In this document: one piece after another, positions 1,728-21,668 of the stretch | Layout: every line of letters starts with the position of its first letter | Position numbering within the stretch: position 1 is the stretch's first letter | NCBI GenBank assembly: GCA_947465495.1 | Contig: CANIAS010000018.1 | Coordinates: forward strand, 1 to 47,888 | DNA from: Candidatus Pollutiaquabacter sp. | GTDB taxonomy: Bacteria > Bacteroidota > Bacteroidia > AKYH767-A > 2013-40CM-41-45 | DNA length: 47,888 nt | Direction: 5' to 3' | Made by a program: the position numbers and the translations under genes | The notes under the pieces: generated by a model | Databases searched by the model: none | Told to the model about the DNA's origin: nothing | What the model saw: the letters and a program-made list of their open reading frames with translations, nothing else

Positions 1728-2801
1728 ATGTATCGATTTTTGTTAACCCGGCTGCTGAATGGCATGTTGGTGCTCCTAGGCGTAGCCGTGGTCATCTTCG
1801 TGTTGTTTTCTGTATTGCCGGCAGATCCGGCAAGGATGATGCTAGGACAACGCGCAGACAGCGCATCGGTAGCTGTCATTCAACGTGACCTTGGTACTGA
1901 CCTGCCCGTTATGTTGCAGTTTGTAAAGTTTATGGATGACCTATCTCCGCTGTCGTATTACTCTTTACGCGCTGAAGATCCGCTGTATAGGGATCTACAA
2001 TCCATCCCGCATTTTCAGGTGTATGCTGCTTCTGAAGGAGTCCTTGTTTTTAAAATGCCCTATCTACGTAGGTCGTATCAGTCCAAACGGGAAGTTTCCT
2101 CCATGCTTTCAGAACGAATACCTGACACGGCAATTTTGGCCTTTGCTGCCATTCTCCTCGCTACGATGTTGGGAATCCTATTAGGCACTGTTGCTGCCTT
2201 ATATAAGGATTCATGGATCGACCGCAGTTGCATGTTTTTCTCCATCTTCTTTGTATCTCTTCCTTCGTTTTTTGCTGCCATACTTTTCGCTTGGTTGTTC
2301 GGTTATATCTTGAGCGGATGGACTGGATTGCAAATGACTGGTGGATGGAAAGAAATAGATCCTTTTACAGGTGAATATACATCGTGGAAAAACCTGATTC
2401 TTCCTGCAGTGGTCTTGGGCTTACGACCATTATCCATCATCATGCAGCTTACTCGCAGTTCGATGTTGGAAGTATTCAGCATGGATTTTATTCGAACAGC
2501 TCGTGCAAAAGGTTTAACAGGTAATGTTGTGCTAATTCGTCATGCGCTTCGGAATGCAATGAATCCAGTGGTCACCGCCATCAGCGGCTGGATGGGTTCT
2601 TTGCTGGCCGGTGCAGTTTTTATAGAATATATATTCGGTTGGAATGGAATCGGTAAGCTCACCGTTCAGGCGTTAGAAAATTACGATTTACCAGTCGTGA
2701 TGGGTGTAGTACTCTTTGTCTCCTTTCTTTTTATTCTATTAAATATCATAGCTGATATTATCAACGGCTGGCTGGATCCACGGATTCGAGTCAGTGGATG
2801 A
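1728..2801 (+). CDS. ABC transporter permease, OppB/DppB type
   Basis: This 357-residue inner-membrane permease belongs to the peptide/nickel (binding-protein-dependent) uptake family. A first membrane helix (about 10-30) is followed by a soluble insertion (about 45-130). Five more hydrophobic segments lie near 133-157, 165-195, 222-240, 283-303 and 325-347. The cytoplasmic EAA-like loop that docks on the ATPase is visible near 252-283 (RTARAKGL followed by HALRNAMNP). The family normally works with a second permease, a binding protein and ATPases, but none of these is encoded nearby. The next gene is tpiA, whose likely start lies 26 nt after this stop. The ATG at 1728 gives a normal N-terminus. 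The substrate cannot be told from the sequence; oligopeptide is the default guess. Confidence 0.9.
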   Translation: MYRFLLTRLLNGMLVLLGVAVVIFVLFSVLPADPARMMLGQRADSASVAVIQRDLGTDLPVMLQFVKFMDDLSPLSYYSLRAEDPLYRDLQSIPHFQVYAASEGVLVFKMPYLRRSYQSKREVSSMLSERIPDTAILAFAAILLATMLGILLGTVAALYKDSWIDRSCMFFSIFFVSLPSFFAAILFAWLFGYILSGWTGLQMTGGWKEIDPFTGEYTSWKNLILPAVVLGLRPLSIIMQLTRSSMLEVFSMDFIRTARAKGLTGNVVLIRHALRNAMNPVVTAISGWMGSLLAGAVFIEYIFGWNGIGKLTVQALENYDLPVVMGVVLFVSFLFILLNIIADIINGWLDPRIRVSG

Positions 2802-2827
2802 ATTCGGTCTTAACATCTATCTTGATC

Positions 2828-3583
2828 ATGCCACAAAAAATCATAGCAGGTAATTGGAAAATGAACTTGAATTATGCACAAGCCATGACGTTGGCGGATG
2901 CGATTGCCGCTGGAATTACTGGCGAATCTTCCTGCGAAGTTATTCTGGCTCCGCCGTCCATCTATCTTCACGATGTTCTTCGTCGAATTGGACATCATGA
3001 TCGAATTTCAGTGGCCTCTCAGAATTGTGCAGACCGTGAGCCTGGCGCTTATACTGGCGAATTATCCGCCATGATGCTTGCATCAGTAGGCATTGATTAT
3101 TCCATCATTGGACATTCTGAACGTCGTATTTATTTTGGTGAATCAGATCCTTTGCTGGCTCGCAAAGTGGATCAATGTTTCAAGTATGGTATCCTGCCGA
3201 TATTTTGCTGTGGGGAGACATTGGATGAGCGTGAACAAGGCGTGCAGTCGGAAGTAGTTGAACGCCAACTTCGACAAGGATTATTTCATTTGTCAGAAGC
3301 TGAGTTGTCAGACTGCATCATTGCCTACGAACCTGTTTGGGCTATCGGTACCGGAAAGACAGCCACTCCTGGTCAAGCTCAAGAAATGCATTCCCTCATT
3401 CGTCAGCTACTACGTGGCATTTCTGATTCTGTGGCTGAACGAGTTTCTATTTTGTACGGCGGTAGTGTAACACCTGCAACTGCCCAGGAAATGCTGGCAT
3501 CTCAGGATGTAGATGGAGCATTAGTTGGAGGAGCCTCCCTGAAAGCCGACGATTTCCTCTCTATCATACAAGCTTGTCGTTGA
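2828..3583 (+). CDS. tpiA: Triose-phosphate isomerase
   Basis: The enzyme interconverts dihydroxyacetone phosphate and glyceraldehyde 3-phosphate in glycolysis and gluconeogenesis. The TIM-barrel protein has 251 residues, the normal family length. The catalytic residues are visible: Lys11 in NWKMN, His96 in IIGHSERR and Glu168 in AYEPVWAIGTGK, which also holds the mobile lid loop. YGGSV near the end supplies phosphate-binding glycines. The frame is open from an ATG at 2798, which would overlap the permease stop. I chose ATG 2828 because the protein then begins MPQKIIAGNWKMN, the standard family start. No Shine-Dalgarno site supports either choice. The gene is cytoplasmic and probably cotranscribed with prmA, which starts 16 nt later. 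Confidence 0.96.
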   Translation: MPQKIIAGNWKMNLNYAQAMTLADAIAAGITGESSCEVILAPPSIYLHDVLRRIGHHDRISVASQNCADREPGAYTGELSAMMLASVGIDYSIIGHSERRIYFGESDPLLARKVDQCFKYGILPIFCCGETLDEREQGVQSEVVERQLRQGLFHLSEAELSDCIIAYEPVWAIGTGKTATPGQAQEMHSLIRQLLRGISDSVAERVSILYGGSVTPATAQEMLASQDVDGALVGGASLKADDFLSIIQACR

Positions 3584-3599
3584 TTTCAATTAAACTACT

Positions 3600-4430
3600 A
3601 TGGATTATTATTGCGCATCAATTCCCCTGGATTCTGTCAGCGAAGAAATTATCGTGGCATTTCTAGCTGAGGCTGGATTTGATATGTTTGAAAACGTTCC
3701 TGAAGGTTTGCGAGCGTTTATTCCTGCTGAAGGACATACCCGTGAATCCATCTTAGAACTCGTAAAGGATATTCCTGCTGAAATTATAGGCGAACATTGG
3801 TCGTTGGAATTTGTGCCTGATCAGAACTGGAACGAAACCTGGGAGAAAAGTTTTTCCCCCGTAATTATCGCTAGGCAAGTAGTAATTCGTGCTCCTTTTC
3901 ATGTATCACCAGATCCATCGTTGACGGAACTGATTATCGAACCCAAGATGTCATTCGGTACAGGACATCATCCTACCACAGCATTAATGGTCGAAGCCAT
4001 GTTAGCCGAAAAATGGTCCGATAAGCAGGTGTTGGACATGGGTTGTGGAAGTGGTGTATTGGCCATTCTTGCGGAAAAGTTAGGTGCAACCGCTGTGCTT
4101 GCGATTGATATTGATGATTGGGCGGTACAGAATACCGAAGAAAACGTAGAACGCAATCTATGCACTAGTATCTCCGTTCAAAAAGGGAATGCCGGATTGC
4201 TCTCCGCGTTGAAGTTTCATGCAATTCTAGCCAATATTAATCGTAACATCCTGCTTCATGATATTCCCTCGTATGCTGATGTATTGGAGCAGGGTGGAAC
4301 GCTTTTTATTAGCGGTTTTCTCGTTCAGGATGAAAGTATATTGGTGGAAAAAGCAGAGGCTGCAGGTTTATCCAAATCAGGTGCTCGTATCAGTGATCAA
4401 TGGATGATGTTGGAATTTGTTAAACAGTGA
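3600..4430 (+). CDS. prmA: Ribosomal protein L11 methyltransferase
   Basis: This SAM-dependent enzyme methylates ribosomal protein L11 in the cytoplasm. The 276-residue protein has a variable N-terminal substrate-recognition part (1-110) and a class I methyltransferase fold. FGTGHHPTT near 119 is the family-specific motif. DMGCGSGVLAI near 146 is the SAM-binding glycine-rich loop, ID-ID near 168 the acidic ribose-binding strand, and LANINRNIL near 210 the N-x-x-R/N motif of the active site. ATG 3600 gives the expected N-terminus. Its stop codon overlaps a GTG that opens the next reading frame, so translation of the two may be coupled. Confidence 0.95.
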   Translation: MDYYCASIPLDSVSEEIIVAFLAEAGFDMFENVPEGLRAFIPAEGHTRESILELVKDIPAEIIGEHWSLEFVPDQNWNETWEKSFSPVIIARQVVIRAPFHVSPDPSLTELIIEPKMSFGTGHHPTTALMVEAMLAEKWSDKQVLDMGCGSGVLAILAEKLGATAVLAIDIDDWAVQNTEENVERNLCTSISVQKGNAGLLSALKFHAILANINRNILLHDIPSYADVLEQGGTLFISGFLVQDESILVEKAEAAGLSKSGARISDQWMMLEFVKQ

Positions 4431-4441
4431 AGAAAATTACT

Positions 4442-7400
4442 ATGTATAAGATTTTTTCGTTCGTCATGTTCATCTTCGTTTGGATGTTCACTCTTACAGG
4501 AACAGCTCAGACGCTTCGTAATTTCACCTCGGAACCGGTTAAGTTTTCGCAGGAAATGCAGGCCTTCCTACAGGAAACGGATAAACGAGAAGGTCAACAA
4601 TTAATGGAAGCCTTTCTTCCTTCCTGGACCGGTGGCAAGTTTACCGCTTCTCAGCAGGAAGCCATCTATAAAACGTGCAATTCTATGTTGCGCAAGCGAA
4701 TGAAAGCATTTCCGGAATTCAGGAACTACATCGCTTCACTAACCAGTTTCGCTAATTCTGAACAATCGCAGGAGAGTTTTAATTCGTGGCAGACGAGCAT
4801 TGATAAATTGTTGCTATTACCAGCACGCTATTTTTCAAATTATATAAATGTTTGCAATTGGCTTTTCCGTGATAATACATTGTATGAATCCTCTTCCACA
4901 CGTTGGTATTCCTCCGAAAGAAATTACCGTTTTGAATTTGATTCTATTCCTAAAATTATTTTCCCTGTAACTTCAATTATTTGCACATCTAAAAATGATT
5001 CTTCGGTAATTGCCGCCACACAAGGGGTTTATTACCCTACCAAGCAGTCATTTTATGGACGGGGTGGAAAGGTCAATTGGATGCGCGCAGGTTTGGATGA
5101 GTCAAGTGCGCGGGCAGAGTTGTCTGCTTTTGTTATTGATGTAACTGGAAGCGATTTTAAGGCTGACTCTACCGTTTTTTATTTTCCAAAATATTTTAAG
5201 CAGCCGCTGATTGGACGCTATTCCGATAAACTGTTGGCCAACGTTACCACTGAAAATGCTACCTATCCACGCTTCGAATCGTATACCACTGAATTTCGCA
5301 TAAAGGATATTGTGCCTGGTATCGACTATTACGGTGGATATTCAATGGTTGGTGCAAGGATGGTCGGATCAGGTACTAAGGAGCAGAAAGCGATAATTTC
5401 AATTCAACGCTCGGGAAAACCCTTTTTCATGGCATACTCCAATGGTTTTTCCATTCGAAAAGATCGAATTACCAGTGATAATACAGCGGTGTGTTTTTAT
5501 TTAGCCAATGATTCGATTTATCATCCTAGTTTGACGTTGAAATACATGGTAGACGACAAGGAGTTAACCTTGATTCGAGCAGAAGAAGGTAAATCAAAGG
5601 CTCCTTATTGGGATTCCTACCATCAGGTTGATATGTATTTCGATGGATTGTATTGGAAGATTAATGAGCCGGTGGTCAATATGAAAATGATTAGTGCAGC
5701 CGACGAAAGCAAAGCAGTTTTTGAGTCAGCTAATTTTTTTAGGAAAAGTCGATTTGCGCAGTTGCAGGGAATTAGTCAAGTACATCCGCTTTTCATACTT
5801 AAACAATATTGCGATAATCATGCGACACGCGAAATTTATACCGAAGACCTTGCAAAGGAAATGCGGATGGCTCCAAGTGAAGTCAGGTCAATGTTCCTCA
5901 GTTTCTCTAACTATGGATTTGTCACATACGATGGTACAGATGACAAAGCAATTGTAAAGGACCGACTAATTTATTATTTACAGGCCAATGTGGGGAAAGT
6001 AGACTATGACGTATTGCAATTCGAATCAACCATTAAGGCTCTGCCAAATGCTAGTATTAACTTGTTGAACAATGAGATTACTTTGCGTGGATTAGCTCCC
6101 ATTGTTTTGTCTGATAGTCAAAATGTAGTCATTTTCCCGAAGGAGCAGGAAATTAAATTAGGTAAAAACAGAGACTTCACCTTTGCTGGTCGATTGAAAG
6201 CTGGTCGCTTTGAGTTTTATGGGAAACAATTTAGTTTCGACTACCAAAATTTCAAAGTGAATCTGGATAATGTGGATTCTCTAAGATTAAAAGTGGAAAG
6301 CGATAATCCGTCCGAAATGGATAACTACGGGAATCGTAAACTCGTCTTTGTGCGTAGCGTATTGGAGAATATCACCGGTGATTTGTTGATTGATAATCCG
6401 ATAAACAAATCTGGAAGGAAGGAGTATCCGGAATATCCAGTATTTAATTCGAAAAAAGATTCATACGTTTTTTACGATCGTACTTGGATTCAAGATGGGG
6501 TATACGACCGCGATAAATTTTATTTCCACTTGGATCCATTCTCCATCGATTCACTGGATAATTTCAGTCGCGCTGGGTTAAGTTTTGGTGGTGAATTTGT
6601 CTCGGCAGGTATCTTTGCAGACTTTCGAGATTCACTCAAATTACAAACGGACCTTTCACTTGGATTGATTCGCAGTACAGGATCCGCAGGCTGGCAGGCG
6701 TATGGTGGTAAAGGTAAATTCACCAACGAACTGCAACTGAGTAACCGCGGTTTATGGGGAGATGGCACCTTGGATTATTTGACTTCAGTGTCTGTGTCAG
6801 ATGCATTTCTTTTCTTGCCCGATTCCCTGAATGCGAATGTGTTTAAATTCACTAATCGAAAAGAAACACTGGCCAACGTAGAATTCCCGGGAGTTATCGG
6901 GGACTCCGTCTACTTACATTGGGAGCCGAAAAAAGATTTCATGGATATAAATCGTCGTCAAATTGATATTTTAATGTATGAACGGCAGGTGGCAATGACC
7001 GGAGACCTTACCTTGAGTCCTCCGGGAATGAGTGGTCGTGGAACCATGAAATTCGTTACTTCTGAACTTGATTCGAAACTGTTTAAATACAAGTCAAATG
7101 TGTTTGATGCTGACACGTCCAATTTTCGACTCAACTCTGATGATGCTGCAGCTTTGGCGTTTTCAACGGATAATATTCGTTCACACATTGATTTCGTAGG
7201 TCGATTTGGTGATTTTAAGTCGAATGGAGGAGGCACCTATGTGAAATTCCCGCTGAATCAATACATCAGTTTCATTGATCAGTTCAAATGGTACATGGAC
7301 CAGCAAGAACTCGAGTTGAGTTCGTCTGGAACTGTAGCATCTCAGCCAACAGCTAATGATACAACCGTTACGAACATTACGTTATCAGGTTCGGAATTTG

Positions 7401-8935
7401 TCAGTCTGGAAGCACGGCAAGATTCATTGCGTTTCAAAGCACCATTCGCTCGTTATTCGTTAAAGGATTATTTAATCAAGGCCGAACAGGTTGCCCTAAT
7501 TCAAACGGCTGACGCCTATGTAATACCTGATAGCGGAAAAGTAGTAGTTGAGCGTTATGCTAAAATGCGAACATTGAATCAGTCGCGCATTATTGCCAAT
7601 ACTACCACCAAGTACCATACAATTTACAATGCATCGGTGGATGTTTTAGGAAGAAAGAATTATACTGCTACCGGAGATTATGACTACATCGATGAGAAAA
7701 GTGTAAAACACCACTTTCATTTTGACAATATTCAGGTGGATACAGCCTATCAGACTATAGCTTCGGGTGAATTAACAGTGGAATCCGGATTTCCACTCAG
7801 TGCCAATTTTCTGTTCAAAGGAGGAGTGTTATTACAAGCATCGCACCAGTTTTTGACCTTCTCTGGATTCGCCAAGCCTAATTTCCAGTGTAGTAACGTT
7901 GAACGTAATTGGATTAAGTTTACCGGAGATATCAATCCAATGAATGTGGCTATTCCAATCAATGGACCTGTCACTGATGCCGGAAACAAGCTGGTAGCTT
8001 CAATTGCACAAGCAAGTGATAGTACAGGCATTTATGCAGCGTTTTTATTGCCTAAAGGCAAAGCCACGGATTTAGAAATTATCAGTGCTTCCGGAGTTCT
8101 ATATTTCGATAAGCCCACTGGTCAGTTTAGAATAACTACCCAAGAGCGATTGGAGAAACCAACGAATCCTGGTAACTTCTTGAGTTTGGACGATAAAAAA
8201 TGCCTGGTTTATGGAGAAGGCAGACTTGATTTCGGATCTCAGTTAGGTCAGATGGAACTCATTACTGTTGGTAATGTGACGAACAATCTAAACAATGATA
8301 GTACCCAACTGGATGTTTTAGCGGCAGTCGATTTTCCATTTGAGAATGACGCCTTGAAATCGATGGCAGAACAATTGGCTCAAAATCCATTGCTGGATCC
8401 GACAATAGATGTTGGACGTACAACCTTTGAACGTGGAATTACTGAATTAGCCGGCAAGGAGAAGGCCGAAAAGATACTGGCAGAACTTAACTTGTATGGT
8501 TCATTTAAAAAAATTCCGGAAGAGCTACGGCATACCTTGTTTCTTTCGGAGTTGAAGTTAGCTTGGGACAATAGCACAAAATCATATCGCTCCATAGGCC
8601 CGATTGGCTTGGGTAGTATTGAAAAGATTTCAGTCAATAAAAAGATGAAAGGATTCGTGGAAATCATTCACAAGCGAACCGGCGATGCGTTCAATGTGTA
8701 TTTAGAACCAGAAGATGGAACCTGGTATTATTTCAGCTATGCCCGTGGATTAATGCAAACCCTTTCGACCAATACTGCGTTCAACGAGTCAATTAATAAA
8801 CTAAAACCGGAAAAACGGGTATCCAAAGTGAAGGAGAAACCTGATTTTGAATACATGATCACCACTGACCGTGCTGTGCGTAACTTCCTGAAACGGATGC
8901 AACCACAACCGGAACCAGAACAGGATGGTCGATAA
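4442..8935 (+). CDS. Very large exported protein of unknown function
   Basis: I do not recognise this 1497-residue protein. It starts with a signal peptide (hydrophobic 5-20, cut likely after TGTAQ), and no further clear membrane helix follows. Residues about 30-140 look helical. A region near 440-530 (KQYCDNHATREIY, LAKEMRMAPSEVRSMF) resembles a winged-helix fold. From about 530 to 1400 there are short alternating strands rich in Asp, Ser and aromatic residues, as in long beta-solenoid, beta-propeller or AsmA-like periplasmic proteins. The C-terminus is charged and Pro/Glu-rich. I prefer ATG 4442; GTG 4427 overlaps the prmA stop and adds five residues (MKKIT) that would also suit a signal peptide. 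I see no lipobox and no T9SS sorting domain, so periplasmic or outer-membrane-associated location is inference. Base composition resembles its neighbours. Confidence 0.85.
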   Translation: MYKIFSFVMFIFVWMFTLTGTAQTLRNFTSEPVKFSQEMQAFLQETDKREGQQLMEAFLPSWTGGKFTASQQEAIYKTCNSMLRKRMKAFPEFRNYIASLTSFANSEQSQESFNSWQTSIDKLLLLPARYFSNYINVCNWLFRDNTLYESSSTRWYSSERNYRFEFDSIPKIIFPVTSIICTSKNDSSVIAATQGVYYPTKQSFYGRGGKVNWMRAGLDESSARAELSAFVIDVTGSDFKADSTVFYFPKYFKQPLIGRYSDKLLANVTTENATYPRFESYTTEFRIKDIVPGIDYYGGYSMVGARMVGSGTKEQKAIISIQRSGKPFFMAYSNGFSIRKDRITSDNTAVCFYLANDSIYHPSLTLKYMVDDKELTLIRAEEGKSKAPYWDSYHQVDMYFDGLYWKINEPVVNMKMISAADESKAVFESANFFRKSRFAQLQGISQVHPLFILKQYCDNHATREIYTEDLAKEMRMAPSEVRSMFLSFSNYGFVTYDGTDDKAIVKDRLIYYLQANVGKVDYDVLQFESTIKALPNASINLLNNEITLRGLAPIVLSDSQNVVIFPKEQEIKLGKNRDFTFAGRLKAGRFEFYGKQFSFDYQNFKVNLDNVDSLRLKVESDNPSEMDNYGNRKLVFVRSVLENITGDLLIDNPINKSGRKEYPEYPVFNSKKDSYVFYDRTWIQDGVYDRDKFYFHLDPFSIDSLDNFSRAGLSFGGEFVSAGIFADFRDSLKLQTDLSLGLIRSTGSAGWQAYGGKGKFTNELQLSNRGLWGDGTLDYLTSVSVSDAFLFLPDSLNANVFKFTNRKETLANVEFPGVIGDSVYLHWEPKKDFMDINRRQIDILMYERQVAMTGDLTLSPPGMSGRGTMKFVTSELDSKLFKYKSNVFDADTSNFRLNSDDAAALAFSTDNIRSHIDFVGRFGDFKSNGGGTYVKFPLNQYISFIDQFKWYMDQQELELSSSGTVASQPTANDTTVTNITLSGSEFVSLEARQDSLRFKAPFARYSLKDYLIKAEQVALIQTADAYVIPDSGKVVVERYAKMRTLNQSRIIANTTTKYHTIYNASVDVLGRKNYTATGDYDYIDEKSVKHHFHFDNIQVDTAYQTIASGELTVESGFPLSANFLFKGGVLLQASHQFLTFSGFAKPNFQCSNVERNWIKFTGDINPMNVAIPINGPVTDAGNKLVASIAQASDSTGIYAAFLLPKGKATDLEIISASGVLYFDKPTGQFRITTQERLEKPTNPGNFLSLDDKKCLVYGEGRLDFGSQLGQMELITVGNVTNNLNNDSTQLDVLAAVDFPFENDALKSMAEQLAQNPLLDPTIDVGRTTFERGITELAGKEKAEKILAELNLYGSFKKIPEELRHTLFLSELKLAWDNSTKSYRSIGPIGLGSIEKISVNKKMKGFVEIIHKRTGDAFNVYLEPEDGTWYYFSYARGLMQTLSTNTAFNESINKLKPEKRVSKVKEKPDFEYMITTDRAVRNFLKRMQPQPEPEQDGR

Positions 8936-8985: not shown

Positions 8986-9624
8986 TTGCTCACCTTTCAC
9001 AACATCCTGGGACTACTTGTGGCCTATCTGATAGGTTCTATACCATCTGCAGTTTGGGTGGGCAAATCGTTTTATGGGATTGACGTTCGTGAATATGGCA
9101 GTGGTAATGCAGGAGCTACGAATACCTTTCGTGTATTAGGAAAACGTCCTGGAACGGCCGTGCTGATCATGGATATATTGAAAGGATTTTTAGCTGTTAA
9201 GGTGGCTTATATTTTGGGAGATTATGAAACCCAGTCTCCAGAATTCATCGACTTTGAATTGGCACTCGCCGTTTGTGGATTATTGGGTCACGTTTTTCCG
9301 GTGTATGTCGGTTTCCGTGGCGGTAAAGGCGTTGCTACCATGTTGGGAATCCTGATTGGTGTACATCCTCCGGCTGCCGCTGTTTGCGCGGTGGTATTTC
9401 TGGTGTCTTTTGCAACATCTAGGTACGTTTCACTGAGTAGTATGTTGGCTGGGATTGCCTTCCCAGTGGTAATTATGGTTTTTTATTCCACGAATTCCAG
9501 TATCAACATCTTTTCCTTGGCTGTAGCCATCATGATTTTAGTGACCCACCAACGCAATATTGAACGGCTCTTCGCCGGTGAAGAATCGCGTGTCAATCTG
9601 TTCCGTCGAAAAGTTTCCAGCTAA
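8986..9624 (+). CDS. plsY: Glycerol-3-phosphate acyltransferase (acyl-phosphate type)
   Basis: PlsY transfers an acyl group from acyl-phosphate to glycerol 3-phosphate, the first step of phosphatidic acid synthesis, in the inner membrane. The 212-residue protein carries the three conserved loops: GSIPSAVWVGK near 17, GSGNAGATNTFRVLG near 37-51 and GHVFPVYVGFRGGKGVAT near 98-115. About five hydrophobic helices are present. An in-frame stop at 8965-8967 leaves no ATG; the TTG at 8986 is the best start and places the N-terminus where the family has it. The gene converges with the TPR gene, with only 2 nt between the stops. The 50-nt gap upstream holds no clear promoter. Confidence 0.94.
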   Translation: MLTFHNILGLLVAYLIGSIPSAVWVGKSFYGIDVREYGSGNAGATNTFRVLGKRPGTAVLIMDILKGFLAVKVAYILGDYETQSPEFIDFELALAVCGLLGHVFPVYVGFRGGKGVATMLGILIGVHPPAAAVCAVVFLVSFATSRYVSLSSMLAGIAFPVVIMVFYSTNSSINIFSLAVAIMILVTHQRNIERLFAGEESRVNLFRRKVSS

Positions 9625-9626
9625 AA

Positions 9627-10520
9627 TTATTGGCAGTATTGCATCATTCCATCGGAATGCTTTGCAAATGCACGGTCTAACACCAGCGCACGTTCAATAT
9701 CCGGACATATGCGTTTTTTATACCCTAAATAATTTCCAGCCAATGCACGGTAAAAGTACGCCTCAGCTAGGGTAGTATCCAATCGAATTGCATTTGTCAA
9801 ATCTTTACGTGCCGCTATCGCAGCATCACTGTCTAATTCACTATGCAATAATCGAATCTTCGCACGCGTGAGATACGATTGCGCCACAAATGGATCATTG
9901 TCAATGCTTTTATCAATGGCCTTTAAAGCTATAGGAATCTCGCGTAGGCTGTCAGCATGCAGCGCTTCTTGCAGCTCGGAGCTGGCAATGTCTTTATGAA
10001 TAGGACAGTTTTCGGCAATTAATTTCCAGGCTTTTTCATCCCCTTCGGAAAAATGGGTGGTCACATATGATTCGAAGGTGCTGGCGCGAAAAAATCGGTG
10101 AAAGGTGCCAGCCGGTAACAACGCAGTAAGTGCAGCAACTAACAGGATGGGCATCTTCCATGTCCAGCCGGTGATTTTTTTCAAAACACTATAGTTGCCT
10201 ATAACCAAGAAAGCCATTAGGATAAAACCCATCCAGGCTGTGACTATCCCTGTGTAGGACCTGCCTAATTTCTGCTGAAGCAGGAGTAATACAATGGCTG
10301 ATAATGCCAGGGAATAGGGAGGAGTCGGTCCTTTTTTCAGAAACCATCCCCACAGCAGTTGAATGAATGAGAAAAAACAAAAAGCCGTAGACAATATGTA
10401 AAGTAACCCAGTAAATGGTAGTCCGAAGGAACGTAATACTAGGGTCACCGTCCAGCTCCAAATTGCAATCTGGAGTAGTTTTTCCTTGGCATTTTTTGCA
10501 GAATCTGAACGGCGGTTCAT
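9627..10520 (-). CDS. Membrane protein with C-terminal TPR-like repeats
   Basis: This 297-residue protein has four or so hydrophobic segments in its first half (about 20-150). A soluble C-terminal part follows, with tetratricopeptide-like pairs: residues about 185-290 contain ALKAIDKSIDNDP, SYLTRAKIRLL, ARKDLTNAIRLD and AEAYFYRALAGNYLGY. TPR units bind partner proteins, and I cannot assign a specific partner. I chose ATG 10520; an upstream TTG (10538) would add six residues and run into the divergent gene's leader. The gene diverges from the glycosidase fusion with 53 nt between the two ATGs, so control elements must overlap there. Confidence 0.8.
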   Translation of the reverse strand: MNRRSDSAKNAKEKLLQIAIWSWTVTLVLRSFGLPFTGLLYILSTAFCFFSFIQLLWGWFLKKGPTPPYSLALSAIVLLLLQQKLGRSYTGIVTAWMGFILMAFLVIGNYSVLKKITGWTWKMPILLVAALTALLPAGTFHRFFRASTFESYVTTHFSEGDEKAWKLIAENCPIHKDIASSELQEALHADSLREIPIALKAIDKSIDNDPFVAQSYLTRAKIRLLHSELDSDAAIAARKDLTNAIRLDTTLAEAYFYRALAGNYLGYKKRICPDIERALVLDRAFAKHSDGMMQYCQ

Positions 10521-10573
10521 ACGTTTAATAATTGACAAAAAAGTGTAGTTGGTTTGTTAAAAGAATAAAAGTA

Positions 10574-13500
10574 ATGGTAGCTTCCGAAAGTAACAGAAAA
10601 TTACTTTTACAATCAATGTTGAACAATCGTTTTTCTCGCGGAACATATGTTTGGTGGATCTGCTTTTCTGCTGCCTATGTATTTTCAGTATCATCAAGTG
10701 CTGCAGTACCCTCCAAACTGCCGCCATTTATCCAGCCTGCTGCTGAGAAATGGGCAGATTCAGTAATAAGTACCTTAACTCCTGCTGAGCGAATTACACA
10801 ATTATTCATGGTCGCTGCATGGAGCAACAAGGATTCCACCCACATCCAGGAAATTACTAAGTTGATTCAAGATTGGGGAATTGGCGGATTGATATTTTTT
10901 CAAGGCGGACCTGTTCGTGAGGCACTGCTCACTAATTTTTATCAGTCGCAATCCAAAGTGCCGCTTCTGATTGGTATTGACGGCGAATGGGGATTACCCA
11001 TGCGACTCGATAGTTGCCTCCGTTTCCCCCGACAAATGACTGTCTCCGCTGCTTTAGACGACAGTCTGGTGTATGCCATGGGAACTGCGATTGCACACCA
11101 TTGTAAACGATTGGGGATACACATCAATTTTGCTCCTGATGCGGATATCAACAATAATCCATCGAACCCAATTATCGGTAGTCGATCCTTCGGCGATGAT
11201 CGGGAGATGGTCACCAGGAAAGCAATGCTCTACATGAACGCTTTGCAGGATCATGGGGTGATGGCTAATGGGAAACATTTTCCCGGACATGGTAATGCCG
11301 ATAGCGATTCTCACCTTACCCTTCCTTCCATACTGCAAACGCGTGAGGAAATGGATACGGTGGAACTAGCTCCATTTAAGGCGCTGATCAACCAAGGACT
11401 TTCCTCCATCATGGTTGCTCATCTAAATGTGCCTGCGCTGGATAAAACACCCGGACTTCCCTCTACGCTTTCGGCTCCAATTATTCAAGGTGTATTGCAG
11501 CAAGAACTTGGATTTAAGGGTTTGATTTTTACCGATGCGTTGAACATGAAAGGTGTCAGTGCGGCGTATAAACCGGGTATCCTAGACCGAACCGCGTTGT
11601 TGGCTGGCAACGATGTGATGTTGTATTCGGAGGATATTCACAAAGCAGTCGAAGAAATTCAATCGGCCATTGATTCTGGGTTTATTACCCAGACTGAAAT
11701 TGACCGTAGGGCTAAAAAAGTTTTAATGGCTAAGTATTGGTGCGGACTTAATGCGTATCAACCCATTGATACCTCGAATTTAATATTGGATTTGAATAGT
11801 CCGGAAGACATTGCGCTGCAGCACACGTTGTTTGAAAAATCAATCACGTTATTGGCTAATCATTCCGAGGTGCTGCCCTTGAAAGATGTCTACCAAAAGA
11901 AGTTAGCAGTTGTGTCTGTCGGAGCTCCCAAAGGAAATCGTTTTCAATCGGTCTTGTCGGATTATTTACGTGCTGATTTTTATGCTGCAGAGAAGGACGC
12001 AACCCAAAATGTCTTTGACGCACTTTTTGAATTTCTGAAAAATTATGACATCGTACTGCTTTCCTTGCATGGAACTACTATGAAGTTTCAGACTGGTTAT
12101 GGTATTCCGGAGAATGCACGTGCATTCATCGACTCGGTGATGCTGAAGTATCCCACCGTATTTGTTGATTTTGGGAATGCCTATACGCTCAGTCGATTTC
12201 GCCACCTTGACAAGGCGAAAGCAGTCGTTCTTGCCTACGAAGATTTTCCATTGCCGCAAGAATTAGCCGCTGAAGTAGTGGTCGGGGCATCTGTTGCAAG
12301 TTCCCGAATTCCGATTAATGCCTCCGCTGAATTTCGCAGGGGGCAAGGCATCGATGCTAGTACGACCTTTCGGCTGAAATTTTCGTCTCCCGAGGAAGTT
12401 GGATTGTCGTCTAAACGTTTTAACGCTATTGACTCTATTGTTGATGCTGCAATTACTGCAGGAGCAATGCCCGGATGTCAAGTATTAGTAGCTCGTTCGG
12501 GAAAGATTATTTACGATAAGGCTTTTGGTTTTCATACGTACGATTCGTTACAAGCTGTTCGAACGGATGATTTATATGACATCGCTTCTGTAACCAAAAT
12601 CGTCGCCACAGGATTGGCAACGATGAAAGTGTTCGAACAAGGCAAGCTTGATTTGAACGCTCCGCTTTCTAAATACCTCCCCAAATTAAAATCGACCAAT
12701 AAAAAAGGGTTGATCATCAAAGAAGTACTAGCCCATCAAGCTGGGCTTCCTGCCTGGATTCCTTTCTGGAAAAACACCATAGATTCCTTGTATACTGGAC
12801 CAGCCATTTATTCGGACATTCCTTCGGATGTATTTTCAATTCGTATCTGCGATAGTCTTTACATGCGGAATTCATTTTTGGATAGTCTGCAACAATGGGT
12901 ATTCAAAGCTCCGTTGGGCGAGCGAGGTAAATACGTTTACAGTGATCTGGGGCCAATTTTAATGCGGTGGGCGATTGAACATATTACCAATAAACCCTTT
13001 GATCAATACCTCGAAGAAGAGTTTTATGGCCCGTTGCAATTAAGTCGTTTGATGTTTCGTCCATATCAGAAATTTACGTTGGATGAGTTGGTGCCAACCG
13101 AGTTTGATCGCGAATATCGCCGTCGGTTGATTCACGGGGATGTACACGATCCTGCGGCTGCGATGCAAGGTGGTGTTTCAGGAAACGCTGGAATTTTTAG
13201 CAACGCGTTCGACCTGGCAGTTATCCTCCAAATGCTGTTGGAAGAGGGAACTTACGGTGGTCAGCAATTGTTGAAGCCGAATACCATCAGCATGTTCACT
13301 CGTCAGCAGTTTGTTCAAACTAAAAATCGCCGTGGACTACTTTTTGACAAACCAGAAACAGAAAAGGGAAAAGCCAGTCCGTGTTGTAGCTCAGCGTCCC
13401 CATTAGCTTTTGGGCATCAGGGGTTCACTGGCACCTGTGTGTGGGTAGACCCTCAGTATGATTTGATCTATATCTTCCTTTCTAATCGGGTTAATCCCGA

Positions 13501-13585
13501 TGCATCGAATGATAAATTAGTTAAAATGAATGTCAGGACGGCCATTCAGCAGGCCATCTACGATGCGGTTCAGAATGCCCGGTGA
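10574..13585 (+). CDS. GH3 beta-N-acetylglucosaminidase / serine hydrolase fusion
   Basis: This is an exported two-enzyme protein of 1003 residues. After a hydrophobic signal segment (about 25-45) comes a glycoside hydrolase family 3 domain. It has KHFPGHG at 234-240, the NagZ-type Asp-x-His dyad at Asp245/His247, and the likely nucleophile Asp321 in FTDALNMKG. A GH3 C-terminal-like part follows (about 420-580). The last 380 residues form a beta-lactamase/class C-type domain: Ser672-x-x-Lys675 in SVTK, Tyr789 in YSDLG, and His948-x-Gly in HQGFTGT in place of KTG. NagZ-type enzymes cut N-acetylglucosamine from muropeptides, and the serine hydrolase partner may act on peptide or amide ends. Together they suggest peptidoglycan turnover, which is inference. 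The start is uncertain: ATG 10574, ATG 10616 and TTG 10532 are all possible. Confidence 0.92.
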   Translation: MVASESNRKLLLQSMLNNRFSRGTYVWWICFSAAYVFSVSSSAAVPSKLPPFIQPAAEKWADSVISTLTPAERITQLFMVAAWSNKDSTHIQEITKLIQDWGIGGLIFFQGGPVREALLTNFYQSQSKVPLLIGIDGEWGLPMRLDSCLRFPRQMTVSAALDDSLVYAMGTAIAHHCKRLGIHINFAPDADINNNPSNPIIGSRSFGDDREMVTRKAMLYMNALQDHGVMANGKHFPGHGNADSDSHLTLPSILQTREEMDTVELAPFKALINQGLSSIMVAHLNVPALDKTPGLPSTLSAPIIQGVLQQELGFKGLIFTDALNMKGVSAAYKPGILDRTALLAGNDVMLYSEDIHKAVEEIQSAIDSGFITQTEIDRRAKKVLMAKYWCGLNAYQPIDTSNLILDLNSPEDIALQHTLFEKSITLLANHSEVLPLKDVYQKKLAVVSVGAPKGNRFQSVLSDYLRADFYAAEKDATQNVFDALFEFLKNYDIVLLSLHGTTMKFQTGYGIPENARAFIDSVMLKYPTVFVDFGNAYTLSRFRHLDKAKAVVLAYEDFPLPQELAAEVVVGASVASSRIPINASAEFRRGQGIDASTTFRLKFSSPEEVGLSSKRFNAIDSIVDAAITAGAMPGCQVLVARSGKIIYDKAFGFHTYDSLQAVRTDDLYDIASVTKIVATGLATMKVFEQGKLDLNAPLSKYLPKLKSTNKKGLIIKEVLAHQAGLPAWIPFWKNTIDSLYTGPAIYSDIPSDVFSIRICDSLYMRNSFLDSLQQWVFKAPLGERGKYVYSDLGPILMRWAIEHITNKPFDQYLEEEFYGPLQLSRLMFRPYQKFTLDELVPTEFDREYRRRLIHGDVHDPAAAMQGGVSGNAGIFSNAFDLAVILQMLLEEGTYGGQQLLKPNTISMFTRQQFVQTKNRRGLLFDKPETEKGKASPCCSSASPLAFGHQGFTGTCVWVDPQYDLIYIFLSNRVNPDASNDKLVKMNVRTAIQQAIYDAVQNAR

Positions 13586-19691: not shown

Positions 19692-21668
19692 ATGAAATAC
19701 TCCCGATCCGGTTGGACCGATGAACAATTGAAAGAGACGTATTACGAGCTCTTAAAACCTCGAATGATCGAGGAAAAGATGTTGGTGCTGTTACGTCAAG
19801 GACGTATTGCCAAATGGTTCTCCGGCATTGGTCAGGAAGCTATTTCAGTCGGTCTTGGATTGTCATTGCGCTCTGAAGAGTATATTCTCCCCATGCACCG
19901 TAATTTGGGCGTTTTTACCACTCGTAAGATTCCGCTCAATCGCCTTTTCTCGCAGTGGATGGGTAAGCCAGGTGGTTTCACCAAAGGACGTGATCGTTCT
20001 TTTCATTTCGGTACCCAGGAGTTTAAGATTATTGGAATGATCTCTCACCTAGGTCCACAAATGGGCGTGGCCGATGGTATCGCGCTAGGAAACCTGCTTA
20101 AAGATAATGGCCTCGTGACGGCCGTATTTACCGGCGATGGTGCTTCCAGCGAAGGTGATTTCCATGAAAGTTTAAATGTAGCAGCTGTCTGGAATCTACC
20201 GGTCATTTTTATTATTGAAAACAACGGGTATGGGTTGTCCACTCCTTCCAACGAGCAATTTAAGATGAAGCAATTCATTGATAAAGGCATCGGTTATGGC
20301 ATGGAAGCGATGCAAGTGGATGGAAACAATATTTTAGAAACCCGTAAGACTTTTACGGAACTCGCTGCTTCCATTCGTTCTAATCCTCGTCCGGTAATGG
20401 TCGAGTGCATGACGTTTCGTATGCGCGGACATGAAGAAGCTTCAGGAACCAAATATGTCCCGCCTCACCTCTTTGAAGAATGGGGAAAGAAAGATCCCGT
20501 CAATAATTTTGAGAATTTCCTGCTTACGGAAAAAGTAATCGATGAAGCTTATATTGCGCTTATTCGCAGAGAGATAAAGCAAGACATCGAAAGAAACTTA
20601 GAGGTCGCTTTTGCTGAAACTTCGCCGGCGCCAGACTCGCAGTTGGAGCTACACGACATGTACGATCGCCGTCCGGTTCCAATTATTCCACCGGCTGCAG
20701 CAATTTCTGAGATACGTTTTGTAGATGCCCTTTCTGACGGTCTGCGTGAGTCTATGCGAAAATTTAAAGACCTGGTCATTATGGGCCAGGATATTGCCGA
20801 TTATGGCGGGGTTTTTAAAGTGACTCAGGGTTTCTTAGAAGAATTTGGAAAGCCGCGAGTACGAAATACTCCGTTGTGCGAATCGGCCATCATAGGTACA
20901 GCTCAAGGTTTGGCCATTAACGGCATGAAGGCGATCGTTGAAATGCAGTTTGCAGACTTTGTGACCTGTGGATTCAACCAGATTGTGAATAATCTAGCTA
21001 AAACGCATTACCGTTGGGGACAAAATGTCGATGTCGTTGTACGCATGCCTACTGGTGCCGGAGTCAACGCCGGACCATTCCATTCACAATCCAACGAAGC
21101 CTGGTTTGTGCACACCCCAGGTCTAAAAGTAGTTTATCCGGCTTTTCCAGCTGACGCTAAAGGACTCATCACTGCATCCATCGAAGATCCCAATCCTGTA
21201 CTCTTCTTTGAACATAAAGCACTTTACCGCTCTATTTCCGGACCCGTTCCGGAAGGTTATTATACGATTGAAATTGGTAAAGCAGCTCGTATTAAAGAAG
21301 GTTCTCAGGTATCCGTCATTACTTATGGTCTGGGTGTACATTGGGCTTTAGAATGGATGTCAGAGCACCCTGAAGTCAACGTAGATCTTATTGACTTAAG
21401 GTCGCTATTGCCTTGGGATCAAGAAATGGTCGAAGAAAGTGTTCGTAAGACTGGACGAGTCATAGTGCTGCACGAAGACACGTTCACCGGTGGAATCGGC
21501 GGCGAAATTGCTGCACACATTGGTGACAAGTGCTTCCGGTACTTGGATGCGCCCGTGGTTCGTTGTGCCAGTATGGATACGCCAGTTCCTATGAGCCTCG
21601 AATTAGAGAACAACTTCTTGGCTAAGAACCGCCTCGATGAAGTTATGCAGCGCTTACTTTCCTACTAA
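19692..21668 (+). CDS. 2-oxoacid dehydrogenase E1, fused alpha and beta subunits
   Basis: This is the thiamine-diphosphate-dependent E1 of a pyruvate or branched-chain 2-oxoacid dehydrogenase complex, which decarboxylates the oxoacid and passes the acyl group to lipoyl-E2. The 658-residue chain has an alpha domain (1 to about 320) with the ThDP/Mg motif GDGAS near 148 ending in ENN near 178, and RMRGHEEAS near 240. A short linker follows. The beta domain (about 340-658) has GQDIADYGGVFKVT, FADF and RMPTGAGVNAGPFHSQ. Two-gene E1 enzymes are common, and this single-chain form is frequent in Bacteroidota. Substrate class cannot be fixed from sequence alone. E2 and E3 are not in the window. The 3' end overlaps the convergent patatin gene by 15 nt. 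Confidence 0.94.
   Translation: MKYSRSGWTDEQLKETYYELLKPRMIEEKMLVLLRQGRIAKWFSGIGQEAISVGLGLSLRSEEYILPMHRNLGVFTTRKIPLNRLFSQWMGKPGGFTKGRDRSFHFGTQEFKIIGMISHLGPQMGVADGIALGNLLKDNGLVTAVFTGDGASSEGDFHESLNVAAVWNLPVIFIIENNGYGLSTPSNEQFKMKQFIDKGIGYGMEAMQVDGNNILETRKTFTELAASIRSNPRPVMVECMTFRMRGHEEASGTKYVPPHLFEEWGKKDPVNNFENFLLTEKVIDEAYIALIRREIKQDIERNLEVAFAETSPAPDSQLELHDMYDRRPVPIIPPAAAISEIRFVDALSDGLRESMRKFKDLVIMGQDIADYGGVFKVTQGFLEEFGKPRVRNTPLCESAIIGTAQGLAINGMKAIVEMQFADFVTCGFNQIVNNLAKTHYRWGQNVDVVVRMPTGAGVNAGPFHSQSNEAWFVHTPGLKVVYPAFPADAKGLITASIEDPNPVLFFEHKALYRSISGPVPEGYYTIEIGKAARIKEGSQVSVITYGLGVHWALEWMSEHPEVNVDLIDLRSLLPWDQEMVEESVRKTGRVIVLHEDTFTGGIGGEIAAHIGDKCFRYLDAPVVRCASMDTPVPMSLELENNFLAKNRLDEVMQRLLSY

Follow-up and report, generated by a model that had tools for sequence, protein, structure and literature searches.

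A widespread exported protein of Bacteroidia with predicted Lpt-type β-jellyroll modules and an operon-like link to plsY

The largest open reading frame (ORF) in a 47,888-nucleotide stretch of DNA from Candidatus Pollutiaquabacter sp. (Bacteroidota, class Bacteroidia; GenBank assembly GCA_947465495.1, contig CANIAS010000018.1; the whole stretch is hereafter called the window) encodes an exported protein, here named P1500, that represents a real, widespread, and apparently undescribed family of envelope proteins—we recognised no description of it in the literature, where a paper could have been missed for want of a locus name. Structure models indicate that two of its modules, B1 and B2, share the β-jellyroll fold of the Lpt proteins, and the fold and layout that we propose are very probably correct. 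With confidence only a little above even, we suggest that P1500 acts as a soluble, Lpt-like bridge for lipid transport in the periplasm, with four jellyroll modules in one chain; phospholipid as its cargo is a more tentative proposal. The genome assembly measures 2.72 Mb and is 97.8% complete, and the nearest named relative is a contig of an uncultured Bacteroidetes bacterium (bin ErkenSummer), the best segment of which is 78% identical.

Predicted fold, domain layout, and export of P1500

AlphaFold2 models of P1500, built as two overlapping fragments (residues 20–830 and 530–1490), reached mean predicted local distance difference test (pLDDT) values of 90.6 and 89.6 and predicted template-modelling (pTM) scores of 0.74 and 0.58, respectively, with the same strands in the region of overlap. 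In structural comparisons with VIA-align, the top 14 rows for the N-terminal half (Z 9.4–11.7) and the top 18 for the C-terminal half (Z 9.2–12.3) were all LptA, LptH, LptC, or LptD. For B1, the best of these were LptD 8h1r (Z 11.7), LptC 6mjp (Z 11.5), and LptA 2r1a (Z 11.3), matched at residues about 277–431; for B2, they were LptC 6mjp (Z 12.3, root-mean-square deviation [rmsd] 2.3 over 127 residues), LptC 6mit (11.9), LptD (11.8), and LptA (11.2). Across the B1 and B2 alignments to Lpt proteins, rmsd ranged from 2.2 to 3.1 over about 120 residues, and the LptC and LptA domains were aligned almost whole (119 of 125 residues at 2.2 Å; 120 of 135 at 2.9 Å). Unmatched models typically reach Z 7–8 in VIA-align, and values of 11–12, with LptA and LptC covered almost in full, thus stand clearly above this background. 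The first rows outside the Lpt group reached Z 8.7 in the N-terminal half, on the winged helix, and Z 9.2 in the C-terminal half, but there at an rmsd of 8.7. An Lpt-type β-jellyroll is therefore a well-supported prediction for B1 and B2, with weaker indications for a third module, A1, which drew a single LptD row (Z 9.1, rmsd 4.2).

The original prediction had suggested AsmA-like, β-solenoid, or β-barrel folds; none of these gave the best match, and the Lpt/OstA-type jellyroll found instead is functionally close to the AsmA-like bridges. A barrel or solenoid was set aside on the Foldseek full-chain template-modelling (TM) scores for LptD, which lie near 0.1; as to a barrel, VIA-align mostly places the N-terminal jellyroll of LptD, and not its barrel, on the P1500 models, and porins enter the C-half fold list at Z below 5 only. 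TamB and AsmA chains have no rows in the fold lists, an absence that is not evidence against the β-groove (taco) fold of the AsmA type. Fold similarity between models does not by itself show function.

The models also define the order of domains along the chain, all encoded on the forward strand: six N-terminal helices (residues about 32–144; 4535–4873), B1 (residues 183–423; 4988–5710), a winged helix (residues about 431–521; 5732–6004), the jellyroll-like A1 (residues 535–737; 6044–6652), B2 (residues 746–968; 6677–7345; fold match to about residue 1020), A2 (residues 1001–1210; 7442–8071), further strands, and a C-terminal region of helices and β strands (residues about 1300–1489; 8339–8908). 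The N-terminal helices are taken from the model of residues 20–830 and the C-terminal region from that of 530–1490. About 78 β strands are predicted in total, in keeping with the long run of strands noted earlier, with roughly 14–20 in each module. Profile comparisons with hhalign aligned B1 with B2 over 205 columns (score 41.1, E 1.1e-4; maximum of 60 column shuffles 24.5) and A2 with A1 over 173 columns (score 44.2, E 4.8e-5; maximum of 60 column shuffles 24.3), while reversed controls for both pairs scored about 20.5. P1500 is thus built of a duplicated B–A pair, the first copy of which is interrupted by the winged helix, giving the layout B1-(winged helix)-A1-B2-A2.

The gene occupies positions 4442–8935 on the forward strand, from an ATG at 4442 to its stop at 8935 (1497 residues), and its full-length relatives support this extent. 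Translation might instead begin at a GTG in the same frame, at position 4427, which shares letters with the stop codon of prmA (GTGA) and would give 1502 residues; a coupled start from the GTG or from the ATG is possible. The original prediction of an exported protein of about 1500 residues, the largest gene in the window, held up on each point, the runner-up ORF having 1017 residues. A signal peptide is predicted at residues about 1–24 (4442–4513), with cleavage near TAQ and no lipobox. By a simple hydropathy and motif test rather than a dedicated predictor, all 53 aligned homologues begin with a signal-peptide-like segment, followed in 49 of the 53 by an A-x-A-Q-like cleavage motif. A lipobox pattern occurs in 1 of the 53, and a later hydrophobic 19-mer passes a loose threshold in three, each time weakly hydrophobic and never in the window protein. 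No uncleaved N-terminal anchor helix for the inner membrane, of the AsmA/TamB type, was found in P1500, whose signal peptide is of the cleavable type, and the protein reads as soluble and exported, with no membrane anchor of its own. A sigma-70 consensus scan of the locus, which returned fewer promoter-like sites than shuffled sequences did, was uninformative.

The winged helix, which the original prediction had placed tentatively near residues 440–530, was confirmed by profile and fold. A profile of 27 sequences covering residues 428–528 matched two solved DNA-binding proteins, Lmo0651 (E 1.3e-4) and archaeal TFE (E 4.3e-4); VIA-align matched the domain to Rio2 (Z 8.7) and to Csa3/MarR-type folds (Z 7–8); and TFIIE_alpha was its commonest Pfam match (6 of 27 members, best 1.1e-5). 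In an exported protein, the domain probably binds protein and not DNA.

Gene neighborhood and distribution

P1500 lies in a run of genes on one strand, in the order oppB-like permease, tpiA, prmA, P1500, plsY. Earlier, tpiA and prmA had been singled out as stable neighbors. Both recur among 58 loci for which the counts are lower bounds, many having flanks of 1.5 kb only: TIM (triosephosphate isomerase), encoded by tpiA (2798–3583, +; Pfam PF00121) and conserved upstream, is found near P1500 in 33, and prmA (ribosomal protein L11 methyltransferase; 3600–4430, +; PF06325) lies directly upstream in 40. What had been overlooked is the most informative neighbor, plsY (glycerol-3-phosphate acyltransferase; 8986–9624, +; PF02660 and TIGR00023), directly downstream in the window and in 31 of the 58 loci, at a median gap of 6 nucleotides. 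P1500 therefore has an operon-like link to the gene for an acyltransferase of phospholipid synthesis.

Of 14 genomes that lack P1500, just one has PlsY inside the 17 kb retrieved around PrmA; in that genome, prmA is followed immediately by plsY, with the big gene missing between them (locus L083, 8190 to about 9700, +). A substitute at the locus was sought by homology only, other ORFs near PrmA not being identified, and no P1500 homologue appeared among the 14 P1500-less loci. Elsewhere in the window, a 303-residue ORF at 9627–10538 (−) has no Pfam match at 0.001 and only a weak tetratricopeptide-repeat-type match in NCBIfam, with relatives at the same place in loci L002 and L003; the 1017-residue ORF (10532–13585, +) is a fusion of a NagZ-like domain of glycosyl hydrolase family 3 with a beta-lactamase/PBP4B-like domain; and a 658-residue ORF (19692–21668, +) carries both the alpha and the beta part of a dehydrogenase E1 component in one chain.

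Relatives of P1500, mostly full-length and co-linear, are present in 172 of 198 genomes sampled across its class (150 of the 175 of good quality), in 102 of 121 genera, and in 59 of 66 families—54 always, five sometimes, with seven never. Identity among the listed full-length relatives is 26–64%, and 53 proteins of 1405–1566 residues, the shortest cut off by a contig end, align end to end; conservation is far above chance. Longer relatives of about 1675–1857 residues occur at L088 and L089 (family f50) and L091 (family f67), and genome G026 carries two tandem copies that abut at one coordinate (L055, 5197–9846 and 9846–14546, −), a separate gene duplication.

Twenty of the 26 class genomes missing P1500, 19 of them of good quality, were searched with a profile and none gave a match; the same profile matched strongly in 10 genomes of a phylum-wide sample. 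In that sample, 11 of 247 genomes match P1500, 10 within the same class and one weakly. The weak match (G267:C1:2482-2775, L070; E 3e-4, 98 of 950 positions, in a 737-residue frame), from another class of the phylum, may be chance or a distant jellyroll. P1500 is truly absent from several families of complete genomes and is therefore not essential in every member of the phylum. On a PrmA tree of 53 rows with many weak forks, parsimony requires six changes in the presence of P1500, at least two of them forced by well-supported branches, and one P1500-bearing family groups with a Crocinitomicaceae contig (L036).

Proposed function, known bridges, and alternatives

As a lipid bridge, the fused modules B1-A1-B2-A2 would form a long lipid-holding slide across the periplasm, along which lipids, most likely phospholipids because of the plsY link, would move between the inner and outer membranes. 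Since P1500 has no membrane anchor, it would have to dock to membrane partners, a purpose that its helical N-terminus, winged helix, and C-terminal domain may serve. The lipid-holding groove, end-to-end stacking of modules, cargo, partners, and direction of transport are what we infer.

This proposal sets P1500 beside two groups of known systems. LptA is likewise exported without a membrane anchor, and LptA bridges are stacks of single jellyrolls. P1500 resembles LptA, LptC, LptH, and the N-terminus of LptD in the predicted fold of B1 and B2, whereas it carries four modules in one chain along with its helical, winged-helix, and C-terminal domains, has no detectable sequence kinship to the Lpt proteins, and occurs beside a separate OstA_2 protein. 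The OstA_2 family (PF13100) of Bacteroidota shares its phylum and is Lpt-type by name, but 30 extracted ORFs are 335–589 residues long, against about 1500 for P1500. The AsmA-like and TamB bridges (YhdP, TamB, and YdbH) are large periplasmic proteins of long β architecture proposed to bridge lipids between the membranes, and P1500 is like them in all these respects; unlike them, it has neither a TamB (DUF490) domain nor an N-terminal anchor helix.

Besides P1500, the genome of the window encodes one TamB and one OstA_2 protein, which marks P1500 as an additional system. TamB is present in 192 of the 198 class genomes and OstA_2 in 187, the latter including most of those with P1500. Two or more TamB matches, which may be split pieces of one gene, occur in 20 of 26 genomes without P1500 vs 44 of 172 with it, and, among genomes of at least 3.8 Mb, in 14 of 15 vs 17 of 47; by family, and families are not independent, the average is two or more in 6 of the 7 from which P1500 is absent vs 10 of the 54 in which it is always present. 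Many P1500-bearing genomes also hold a second TamB. Compensation by TamB for the loss of P1500 is a lead that is suggestive only. According to PMC12045153, Flavobacterium johnsoniae encodes five AsmA-like proteins besides TamB and TamB2, and its TamB is essential. Dependence on the type IX secretion system was considered and rejected—its component SprA occurs in 191 of the 198 genomes of the class, and, while five of the seven genomes without SprA also lack P1500, 21 of the 26 P1500-less genomes have it, so there is no one-to-one link. For the sorting domain found at the C-terminus of substrates of that system, an NCBIfam scan of P1500 gave one sub-threshold, unrelated domain only.

Sequence searches place P1500 in no known family, as the original prediction had held, with assignment to a characterised family by profile search named as what would refute it. 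Pfam, NCBIfam, and PHROGs scans of the window protein returned nothing usable; Pfam scans of sets of 53 and 46 homologues gave scattered weak matches apart from the winged helix; and searches of PDB sequences with the whole protein, both halves, and the B2 module stayed at chance level outside that domain. By sequence, P1500 is not a member of OstA/LptA or TamB.

Several of these results, and others, weigh against a lipid bridge. The Pfam scans of the 53 and 46 homologues gave no match to an OstA, LptC, LptD, or TamB model, profile searches of the PDB returned no Lpt chain, and hhalign comparisons of all six parts of P1500 with OstA_2 and TamB (the latter an alignment of 30 truncated rows) gave E-values of 0.11 or worse, the best OstA_2 match (E 0.11, non-significant) falling on the B1 jellyroll. 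Ranked by Foldseek E-value, two teneurin chains stand above LptD for the C-terminal half and ApoB100 is among the best, at TM-scores of 0.04–0.16; we regard the teneurin and ApoB100 matches, with such very low scores, as generic alignments of long β structure. The models themselves are two fragments, the C-terminal one with a pTM of just 0.58. The amphipathic character of the predicted strands (mean face difference 1.91 vs 1.31 ± 0.15, reached by 1 of 2000 shuffles) counts in favor of a groove but would equally fit the core of an ordinary solid β-sandwich, and the winged helix has no explanation in a lipid bridge. In 27 of the 58 loci, the search downstream did not turn up PlsY, partly through short flanks. 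Finally, the TamB trend is confounded by shared ancestry, and among the five families of mixed presence only f16 clearly fits it, while f21, f24, f40, and f51 do not.

Some of these points bear on an alternative in which the jellyrolls are solid β-sandwiches with no lipid groove, and P1500 serves as a scaffold in the periplasm or binds polysaccharide or protein. The resemblance of the winged helix and N-terminal helices to protein-binding modules would suit this, as would the lack of a sequence link to Lpt, but the matches to Lpt proteins are specific and rank higher than the first unrelated rows, and the plsY link also argues against it; we consider it unlikely. Somewhat less probable still is a role as a scaffold for the biogenesis of outer-membrane proteins or lipoproteins, in which P1500 would guide β strands as a TamB-like chaperone path instead of carrying lipid. 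PMC12045153 describes effects of TamL and TamB on outer-membrane homeostasis in Bacteroidota with minor change in the lipidome, and genomes without P1500 more commonly have several TamB matches, both of which favor such a scaffold, whereas the Lpt lipid-slide fold matches, the plsY neighbor, and the lack of a TamB domain and of a membrane anchor speak against it. The least probable alternative, a lineage-specific substitute for or extension of the lipopolysaccharide route in which P1500 acts as an LptA analogue with LptB2FG and LptD, has the closest folds (LptA, LptC, and the N-terminus of LptD) in its favor, but OstA_2 in 187 of 198 class genomes indicates that the usual bridge is present and led us to reject LptA replacement as the preferred reading, some complete genomes keep OstA_2 without P1500, and a scan of ten proteins of the window recognised no lpt gene.

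A fuller version of the lipid-bridge proposal, which we hold as speculative and doubtful as a whole, is that P1500 constitutes a third, independent kind of lipid bridge in the envelope, distinct from both Lpt proper and AsmA/TamB: a covalently fused four-jellyroll slide for phospholipids or other Bacteroidota lipids, fed by new lipid at the PlsY step, ancestral in the class, and lost several times in lineages with extra TamB paralogues.

The route by which phospholipids travel to the outer membrane is still under study, and almost all of the work concerns the Lpt (lipopolysaccharide) and AsmA-like bridges of Proteobacteria. Many little-studied Bacteroidota carry P1500, but few of the best-sequenced ones do, and the low number of matches among complete genomes in the phylum sample (11 of 247) may be the reason that the protein has not been named. 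A bridge of four modules in a single chain would be convenient for structural work on the movement of lipids along jellyroll slides. If the proposal is correct, a widespread protein of 1500 residues with an Lpt fold, encoded beside plsY, would be a concrete and testable candidate for another lipid route.

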